In this document: positions 18,845 through 35,261 of the stretch, in pieces | Position numbering within the stretch: the stretch's first letter is position 1 | Layout: every line of letters begins with the position of its first letter | NCBI GenBank assembly: GCA_038501195.1 | Contig: JBBPUQ010000001.1 | Coordinates: 1,302,001-1,366,000, forward strand | DNA length: 64,000 bases | From: Nemania diffusa | Taxonomy: Eukaryota; Ascomycota; Sordariomycetes; Xylariales; Xylariaceae | Reading direction: 5' to 3' | Made by a program: the position numbers and the translations under genes | Notes under the pieces: generated by a model | Told to the model about the DNA's origin: nothing | The model's input: the letters and a program-made list of their open reading frames with translations, nothing else | The model's database searches: none

Positions 18845-18917
18845 GCCCGACTGGCGTAGTGGCTAACGCGTGCGCCTTCTAAGCGCAAGATCGCGGGTTC
18901 GAATCCCGCGTTGGGTT
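18845..18917 (+). tRNA. tRNA-Arg (anticodon TCT)
   Basis: A 73-nt cloverleaf. Acceptor GCCCGAC (18845-18851) pairs with GTTGGGT (18910-18916), discriminator T at 18917. D arm with GTAGTGGC; anticodon stem TGCGC/GCGCA with loop CTTCTAA, anticodon TCT, reading AGA. T arm GCGGG-TTCGAAT-CCCGC. No intron and no encoded CCA. The nearest run of five Ts lies 57 nt downstream (18974-18978), an unusually distant Pol III terminator. A second copy lies inverted about 250 bp away and differs only in two T-loop bases. Confidence 0.95.
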
Positions 18918-19172: not shown

Positions 19173-19245
19173 AACCCAACGCGGGGGTCGAACCCGCGAT
19201 CTTGCGCTTAGAAGGCGCACGCGTTAGCCACTACGCCAGTCGGGC
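19173..19245 (-). tRNA. tRNA-Arg (anticodon TCT), inverted second copy
   Basis: Reverse-strand copy of the tRNA at 18845-18917: same acceptor, D and anticodon arms (loop CTTCTAA, anticodon TCT). The T loop is TTCGACC instead of TTCGAAT. All stems pair. A T6 terminator follows within about 10 nt, so this copy has the more conventional transcription unit. The two genes converge across a 255-bp spacer. Confidence 0.95.
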
Positions 19246-33016: not shown

Positions 33017-33776
33017 CGGTCGGTCAGGTCGTTGAAAGTATATTAGGTCAAGGAGCTATTACTCCATGTACTGTAGAGGATAAGGGGCACAGACATCCTG
33101 CTTGTGTCCCATACACTAATAATTTCATTATATGTAACCTGACTCTCTGACTCGGCTCGTTAATTCGCTAAATTCATATCAAAAAGATGTTGAATTAGAA
33201 ATCCAAGGCTTGTTCGCCACATTTCAGAATCCCCCCGACCGATTGGTATTATATGGTGTGCATATAAACAATGAAGATATGGCCTGGAAACCTACGAGAC
33301 TGGAGGTTTCAGCATATAAAATATAATCTTTTGTGCTACGGGTGTAGTACCTTCGGTTAGCAAGCTAAGGCCTTACATATGGTGGTCAAGTTGAATACTG
33401 ATTCACAGGGTTTACCCTCATTGAAGCTTGCACGTACAACATATAACATACACCAAGGCATATTCAAATATAAATTCCCTAGAGCTTACGAATCATTGAG
33501 ATAGCCGGGCCGTGCAGGTGTAGTAGTAGTCCGATTACCGGGGCGATCCAGTCAGTCCGATGACGCAAAAATGTACCCAATTAATTCACCCCGCACTATA
33601 GTAGATACGGTATATACTACTATACCCCTTATCAAAGTGTATTTCAAGCCCATTCTTGTGTAATCCCCTCTCTCTAACCATCCAACATTCATCACCCAAC
33701 CCGACTCTCACAACATTCAATTATTATTCCTACTTCAGTACAGTCACTACCTGGTACGAAGCCCGTGCAAAGAATC
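33017..33776. other. Upstream region of THI5
   Basis: The TSD copy is followed by AT-rich DNA and then a pyrimidine-rich stretch (about 33655-33760) typical of a fungal core promoter and leader. No ORF supported. Confidence 0.55.
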
Positions 33777-34076
33777 ATGGCGCCTCTCGCAATGGCACTA
33801 TCTGCTGATCAAGGTAACTATACAAAATGATGCACCCGGGTGGTCGACTTGCTTTGCTGTGCTTCAGCTAGCCCGCTGTCTGTCGCTCAATCTGATGGAG
33901 CGGCATGTAGGCTAGAAGATCACGGCAGGCAGTTGGTCTGAGAAATACCGGCGAACTTGATCTGGATAATACCAGCGAAAGGACGTGCTTCTTTTACCTT
34001 CCCCCCTTGCAAGTCACTGTCAAAGTTGTGCTGACACCCGCTAGCATCGCGGTCAATCTGTCACCATGTCCACTGA
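33777..34076 (+). promoter_or_regulatory. Upstream ORF in the THI5 leader, spliced or unspliced
   Basis: ATG at 33777 opens MAPLAMALSADQ. If the leader intron (33814-34044, donor GTAACT, acceptor GCTAG) is retained, the uORF stops at TGA 33828-33830 after 17 codons. If the intron is removed, the frame continues 22 codons and ends at TGA 34074-34076, overlapping the THI5 start (34066) out of frame. Fungal NMT1 genes are known to use riboswitch-controlled uORFs. The transcription start is assumed to be upstream of 33777. Confidence 0.6.
33903..33988 (+). promoter_or_regulatory. TPP riboswitch (THI element)
   Basis: The two hallmark TPP-aptamer segments are present: CTGAGA at 33938-33943 (pyrimidine-sensor loop) and GATCTGGATAATACCAGC at 33959-33976 followed by GAAAGGA (pyrophosphate-sensor arm). 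P1 closes with GCATGT (33903-33908) against ACGTGC (33983-33988). The aptamer lies inside the leader intron of THI5 (33814-34044), the arrangement known from Neurospora NMT1, where TPP binding changes splice-site choice and lowers expression when thiamine is plentiful. Sequence and position agree strongly; which 5' splice sites it masks is inference. Confidence 0.95.
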
Positions 34077-35261
34077 CAAGATCACCTTTCTGACCAACTG
34101 GTAGGGATGACGTAGTGCAGTTTGCGATAACACCGAAACCTGGGTTGACATAAGATAGGCATGCTACGCCATACCATGCTCCTCTTTTCCTAGCCCAATC
34201 GAAAGGGTTCTTCCAGGAGCAAGGCATCAAGGTTGCCCTTCTCGAGCCAAATGATCCTAGCGTAAGCCATATTGTGAGCCATTTTCTAGTAGGAGACACT
34301 GATATCGTCATAGGATGTTACCGAGATTATTGGCACTGGCAAAGTCGACCTTGGGTTCAAGGCCATGATCCACACACTTGCGGTAAACTTTCTACTTACA
34401 AAAATATAGGACTCATTCTAATATCAATAGGCCAAAGCTCGTAACTTCCCAGTTCTTTCCATCGGCAGCCTTCTGGATGAACCCTTCACTGGTGTCGTCT
34501 ACTTGAAGTCCTCGGGCATCACCCCCGACTTCCACACTCTCAAGGGCAAGCGCATTGGCTATGTGGGTGAGTTTGGCAAGATCCAGATCGATGAGCTTAC
34601 GTCGCACTATGGCATGTCACCAGCGGACTACACTGCTGTGCGCTGTGGGATGAATGTCAGCAAGGCTATCATCAGAGGCGAGATCGATGCTGGGATCGGC
34701 CTAGAGAACGTGCAGATGGTCGAGCTCGAAGAATGGCTTACTTCCCAAGGGCGCCCAAAGACGGACGTCCAGATGCTGCGAATTGACGAACTGGCTGAGT
34801 TGGGTTGTTGCTGTTTCTGCTCGATTCTGTACATTGGGAACGAGAGATTTATTGAGCAAAACCCAGACAAGGTCCGCGCGTTCTTGCGCGCGGTGAAGAA
34901 GGCGACGGACTTCGTGATCGCGCAGCCGGAGCAAGCCTGGGCCGAGTATATCGACTTCAAACCTGTCATGAACAGCGCCCTCAATAGGAAAATTTTCGAG
35001 CGCAGCTATGCCTACTTCTCCAAGGATCTAAAGAACGTCCAGCGTGACTGGGAGAAGGTCACTGCGTACGGCAAGAGGTTGGCCGTTCTCGACGCTGGCT
35101 TTAAGCCCAACTACACGAATGAGTTTCTGGGCTGGACACTTGGAGGCGATTCGCAGGACCCGACCGGGGATCAGAAAAGGATGGCAAACTTGCAGAAGGA
35201 TGTTGCGGCTAAGGGCGGATTCTGCAGGCTGCAGGTGAAGGAACTGCAGGCTCAGAACTGA
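34066..35261 (+). CDS. THI5: HMP-P synthase (4-amino-5-hydroxymethyl-2-methylpyrimidine phosphate synthase)
   Basis: Coding exons 34066-34100, 34159-34261, 34314-34382 and 34431-35261; 345 residues, close to the ~340 of yeast Thi5. The enzyme makes the thiamine pyrimidine HMP-P from pyridoxal phosphate and one of its own histidines, in the cytosol; it is a single-turnover suicide protein. Key residues fall at the family positions: K62 (PLP lysine) and H66 (donor histidine) in [10 protein letters not shown], and C195-C196-C197-F198-C199, the iron-binding CCCFC motif. The canonical N-terminus [12 protein letters not shown] fixes the start at 34066. Introns are 58, 52 and 48 bp, all GT-AG and phase-correct. 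Regulation: TPP riboswitch in the leader intron plus uORF. The fold is NMT1/THI5-like, as in periplasmic binding proteins. Confidence 0.95.

Follow-up and report, generated by a model that had tools for sequence, protein, structure and literature searches.

A putative TPP riboswitch resembling that of Neurospora NMT1 in the leader intron of the NMT1/THI5 gene of Nemania diffusa

The NMT1/THI5 gene found in the 64,000-nt stretch of Nemania diffusa DNA analysed here (the window, positions 1302001–1366000 of contig C1, whose coordinates refer to the plus strand unless stated otherwise) appears to be controlled by a fungal TPP riboswitch that operates in the manner of the Neurospora NMT1 switch (Type I), a reading to which we assign a probability of about 0.85. 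When TPP is low, the P4 strand of the aptamer (33956–33962) would pair with nucleotides 33807–33813 and hide the proximal donor S2 at 33814. Splicing would then join the distal donor S1, for which 33754 is the most likely site, to 34045; the start of the upstream open reading frame (uORF) would be lost and NMT1 would be translated. When TPP is bound, P4 and P5 would fold into the aptamer, leaving S2 free to be used, or the intron would be retained; the resulting mRNA would keep two upstream ATGs in good positions. Their reading frame would, in the S2-spliced form, cross the NMT1 ATG out of frame, suppressing NMT1 translation and possibly exposing the transcript to NMD. If this is correct, a textbook riboswitch design of eukaryotes would extend to a fungus whose closest NMT1 relatives, among the matches listed, belong to Xylaria and Nemania.

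The gene itself is predicted to encode an HMP-P synthase, on the grounds of full-length homology and a conserved start. Four coding exons (34066–34100, beginning with the ATG at 34066; 34159–34261; 34314–34382; and 34431–35261, up to the TGA) yield exactly the 345-aa protein, and the gene is complete. The protein is 92% identical over 100% of its length to a Xylaria grammica protein (P0001), and the closest relatives among the best 120 of 923 matches are Xylaria and Nemania proteins. Residues 1–337 match PDB 4h65, named THI5, with an E value of 2.3e-153, and the start at 34066 fits the first residues of this solved THI5. A search of the genome with the closest NMT1 relative returned two matches only, both of them exons of this same gene.

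The aptamer is predicted at 33913–34000, where the RF00059 covariance model aligns over its full length (model positions 1–105) with 42.4 bits and an E value of 6.6e-7 for the 701 nt searched. In a scan of the whole genome (55.6 Mb, 16 contigs), in which scoring covered 49 of 1776 candidates and yielded three matches, the same match has an E value of 1.2e-5. This Infernal/Rfam check bears out the TPP riboswitch that a preliminary description of the DNA had placed upstream of THI5, although the limits given there for the aptamer, 33903–33988, lie some 10 nt too far 5′. The conserved core can be recognized, with CTGAGA at 33938, GAACTTGATC at 33953 and TAATA at 33967 in addition to P4/P5, and an extended P1 can be drawn by pairing TAGAAGA at 33913 with TCTTTTA at 33990 and CACG at 33921 with CGTG at 33984. 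The score lies below the Rfam gathering score of 54.3 for RF00059, and for this reason the aptamer is absent from the default Rfam scan of the window, which lists two tRNAs only. The window contains two near-identical tRNA genes in inverted orientation and 255 nt apart, at 18845–18917 on the plus strand and at 19173–19245 on the minus strand. A score under the cutoff, together with the several non-standard pairs flagged in the RF00059 alignment, is what one might expect of a decayed or chance match that does not bind TPP. We nevertheless regard this as the least credible of the alternatives considered here, in view of the genome-wide E value, the position directly upstream of a thiamine gene and the joint presence of CTGAGA, P4/P5 and TAATA; moreover, of the three riboswitches of N. 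crassa, one likewise falls under the Infernal threshold (PMC5997356).

As judged from the sequence, the aptamer would be located within a 5′ UTR intron of this thiamine gene, bounded by a donor at 33754 or 33814 and by a common acceptor AG (GCTAG, 34043–34044), with a branch-site-like CTGAC at 34031–34035. The leader intron first proposed, 33814–34044, stands in so far as its donor, acceptor and branch-like site are present; what is improbable is 33814 (AAG/GTAACT, 33814–33815) as the productive donor. Since its flank is complementary to P4, this site is best read as S2, the OFF-state donor that TPP would regulate. The flank, GATCAAG at 33807–33813, is the exact complement of CTTGATC in the 5′ strand of P4 (33956–33962), its predicted partner, with 7 of 7 pairs. 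When the donor region was shuffled 5000 times, an equal score was reached in 53 cases; in genomic controls drawn from twenty 10-kb stretches (200 kb) of the same genome, it was reached at three GTAA sites out of 615 and at 94 GT sites out of 10331. When the longer P4-P5 stretch is considered, 33814 pairs best of the 11 GT sites in the NMT1 leader, with 57 of 2000 shuffles doing equally well. Such complementarity between the P4/P5 strand of the aptamer and the surroundings of S2 is also a feature of the N. crassa NMT1-type switch. Thermodynamic folding lends mixed support to the model, the computed probability of the S2-P4 helix being 0.88 for an RNA starting at 33740, 0.10 for a start at 33700 and 0.01 for starts at 33640 or 33790.

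As to S1, the distal donors at 33738, 33754 and 33765 were all tried and each leaves an NMT1 leader devoid of upstream ATGs. The best candidate by position and sequence is 33754 (CTG/GTACGA, 33754–33755), which lies upstream of the first uORF ATG; this is a matter of judgement and not of a score, the grounds for picking the site being its location, the absence of ATGs and a weak match to the motif. Its GTACG start is shared with a candidate donor of the THI4 gene described below. A search for introns by coding potential produced 17 candidates only, 10 of them with G at +5 and one with GTAACT, and a count of donor hexamers in front of 215 acceptor-like sites gave no enrichment above noise (536 GT versus 518 in a control stretch), so that donors could not be ranked by it. 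Introns of chaperonin genes were read as well: on the plus strand TGG/GTACGT is among five options at locus L055, CAC/GTGAGT is the sole option at L050 and five unclear options exist at L056, while four minus-strand loci offer 5, 5, 9 and 1 options, including GAT/GTGAGT and GAA/GTGAGT. As these options include GTACGT, a GTACG start is acceptable for a donor in this genome. The CTGGTA of S1 can also pair with TACCAG in the aptamer; no weight was placed on this pairing, which 129 of 2000 shuffles equalled.

The putative donors S1 and S2 enclose the start of the uORF, with an ATG at 33777 and a second one in frame at 33792. Both ATGs have a purine at −3 and a G at +4, a good context, so that many scanning ribosomes should start there. 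Reading the predicted isoforms by script reproduced the two splice-dependent forms of the uORF that had been described earlier, including the overlap. When the intron is retained, the frame from 33777 reads MAPLAMALSADQGNYTK and ends at 33830 after 17 codons plus stop (33777–33830). When 33813 is joined to 34045, the 5′ part of the uORF (33777–33813) continues through 34045–34076 to give 22 codons plus stop, ending at 34076 and overlapping the NMT1 ATG out of frame by 11 nt. With transcription assumed to start at 33660, the NMT1 leader contains no upstream ATG if spliced from 33754, two if spliced from 33814 and six if the intron is retained. The S1-spliced leader is accordingly predicted to be uORF-free, and the S2-spliced or unspliced leader to contain uORFs. 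A further candidate donor exists at 33907 (CAT/GTAGGC); its use would place an ATG at 33895 (33895–33906) in frame with NMT1 and add 11 residues.

One could imagine a simpler arrangement in which the 33813/34045 junction belongs to the productive mRNA, transcription starts downstream of 33779 so that no 33777 uORF is made, and the switch consists of retention versus splicing of a single intron. It would be helped by the fair quality of 33814 as a donor, where the exon ends in AAG, and by the fact that the position of the transcription start is deduced from sequence. However, a TATA-like stretch, GTATATACTACTATACCCC, at 33610–33628 suggests a start at about 33640–33700, roughly 100 nt upstream of 33777, and the in-frame ATG at 33792 would have to be avoided too. 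In addition, the flank of 33814 carries the P4 complementarity expected of a masked donor, and the layout with two donors is repeated at THI4. We consider this arrangement improbable. Among the explanations raised in the preliminary description, the use of another 5′ splice site is the best supported, 33754 giving a uORF-free leader and THI4 showing the same layout; a control logic different from that of Neurospora, which had also been raised, finds no confirmation, given the P4 complementarity next to 33814 and the THI4 arrangement. The apparent paradox arose because 33814 was taken as the productive donor, and it illustrates how choosing the wrong donor of a pair can make the standard control logic seem paradoxical.

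The second TPP match of the genome, on contig C4, lies upstream of THI4, identified by Pfam PF01946 in its first exon (locus L003, whose own coordinates are used for this gene). The leader has a candidate distal donor TCG/GTACGC at 1262, upstream ATGs at 1299, 1339 and 1349, a proximal donor CAG/GTAACA at 1375 as the S2 candidate, and an acceptor at 1631. Each of four distal donors tried, 1262 included, gives zero upstream ATGs, while splicing from 1375 keeps all three, and the frame from 1339 then runs past the THI4 ATG in a different reading frame, with an overlap of 53 nt. The first uORF (1299–1352) lies wholly between S1 and S2; the second does not. The two riboswitches are alike in having a GTACG donor upstream and a GTAAC donor downstream of the upstream ATGs, in the GCTGACAC branch region and in an out-of-frame overlapping uORF in the S2-spliced form. 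They differ in the S1-S2 interval (113 nt in THI4 versus 60 nt in NMT1), and THI4 is further distinguished by having three upstream ATGs, by the length of its overlap and by one weak upstream ATG (1349) in frame with THI4. If spliced from 1375, the frame of this weak ATG (1349–1374 joined to 1632–1653) would extend THI4 by 16 residues (MTSINIVIRTSPHTFT).

The ATCAGGT of the THI4 S2 candidate can pair with ACTTGAT of P4 in the same register as in NMT1, a pairing that was equalled in 184 of 5000 shuffles and, among the genomic control sites, by 14 of the 615 with GTAA and 371 of the 10331 with GT. Against P4-P5, 145 of 2000 shuffles equalled the S2 candidate, and the stretches near the GT sites 1313/1321 and 1477/1482 outpair it. 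The probability of the S2-P4 helix in thermodynamic folding was 0.00 from all four starts tried. THI4 on its own would not prove donor masking. In the two leaders combined, the S1-S2 intervals (173 nt in total) hold five ATGs and the 229–339 nt of leader outside them hold none, an enrichment with p values of 0.0143 to 0.0042 depending on the assumed start, which are indicative only because S1 was chosen in part for the lack of ATGs and the count is to that extent circular.

Since S2 is situated inside the NMT1 uORF, splicing at S2 creates a frame that crosses the NMT1 start, and this overlapping frame is most likely the OFF product. The out-of-frame overlap is not surprising by itself: we estimate its chance at roughly 3 in 10, from about 2/3 for the frame and about 0.4 for 18 open codons. 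Between the stop of this uORF at 34076 and the first coding-exon junction (34100/34159) there are 24 nt, and two further junctions follow; this arrangement makes NMD plausible. It had also been suggested that the overlap could serve termination-reinitiation. The overlapping uORF would then be an active element, ribosomes ending at 34076 stepping back to reinitiate at the NMT1 ATG and securing a regulated low-level expression from the S2-spliced mRNA. The 11-nt ATG...TGA overlap that this would use is indeed present in the S2-spliced form, but overlaps of this kind arise frequently by chance on the above estimate, and the matching THI4 overlap is so much longer that the short spacing is not conserved even between these two genes of one genome. 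Reinitiation across an 11-nt overlap would furthermore need a backward movement of the ribosome, which is unlikely. The suggestion gained no support from the analysis, and we hold it to be very improbable. Keeping to the OFF-product reading, one may speculate that the S2-spliced uORFs crossing the main ATG in NMT1 and THI4 form a built-in second lock in this lineage, combining start-site occlusion with NMD and going beyond mere competition for ribosomes, and that the weak in-frame THI4 upstream ATG could give a thiamine-dependent N-terminal extension; this is an unlikely elaboration. That the putative OFF isoforms of NMT1 and THI4 alike carry a uORF across the main start adds a small, testable detail to the scheme.

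The original study of the Neurospora NMT1 riboswitch is reportedly that of Cheah et al. in 2007. In the model as presented in three later accounts (PMC5882874; PMC5997356; PMC7404189), the surroundings of the second donor are paired with a portion of the aptamer when TPP is absent, so that splicing takes place at the first donor and removes the uORF; TPP releases the second donor, and the uORF then remains in the mRNA. N. crassa NMT1 (THI5, NCU09345) is the experimental basis of the Type I class of Mukherjee et al. 2018 (PMC5882874). The gene examined here has in common with it an aptamer in a 5′ UTR intron of the HMP-P synthase gene, a single acceptor, two donors flanking the uORF start and an aptamer strand complementary to the flank of the second donor. 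In the strict wording of PMC5882874, the Type I uORF is flanked by S1 on its upstream side and by S2 on its downstream side, whereas S2 is here inside the NMT1 uORF. As this uORF runs through S2 and ends at 33830 or 34076, we do not claim strict Type I and keep the term Type-I-like.

In a limited search of the literature, no paper was found that joined 'Xylaria' with 'TPP riboswitch'. A fungal-like P4/P5 pattern had no match in the viral contigs searched and occurred in 20 stretches of the genome contigs, all with bacterial titles; tblastn with NMT1 and THI4 exon 1 gave no match in these 20 loci. GATCAAG was found within 170 nt upstream of none of the 21 pattern places in the bacterial-titled stretches, where by our estimate about 0.2 would be expected by chance, so that the control is weak. 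A pattern for NMT1 retrieved 15 stretches from the viral contigs, none of which was confirmed by tblastn. DNA of a related fungus was thus not found in the viral or genome contigs searched.

The third TPP match of the genome, on contig C6 (locus L001, 1501–1596, minus strand), falls in a region whose encoded protein matches SSF weakly (PF00474; E 1.6e-4, 21.1 bits versus a cutoff of 22.8). It looks like the internal-intron type represented by NCU01977/DUR31, for which PMC5882874 describes, as Type II, a riboswitch in a long internal intron of a transporter gene with long-distance P1 pairing. That system also uses a TPP aptamer to regulate splicing of a thiamine gene, but it does so without a uORF in the 5′ UTR. 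The three genomic matches, at NMT1, THI4 and the gene with the weak SSF match, correspond to the set of genes reported for N. crassa in PMC5997356.
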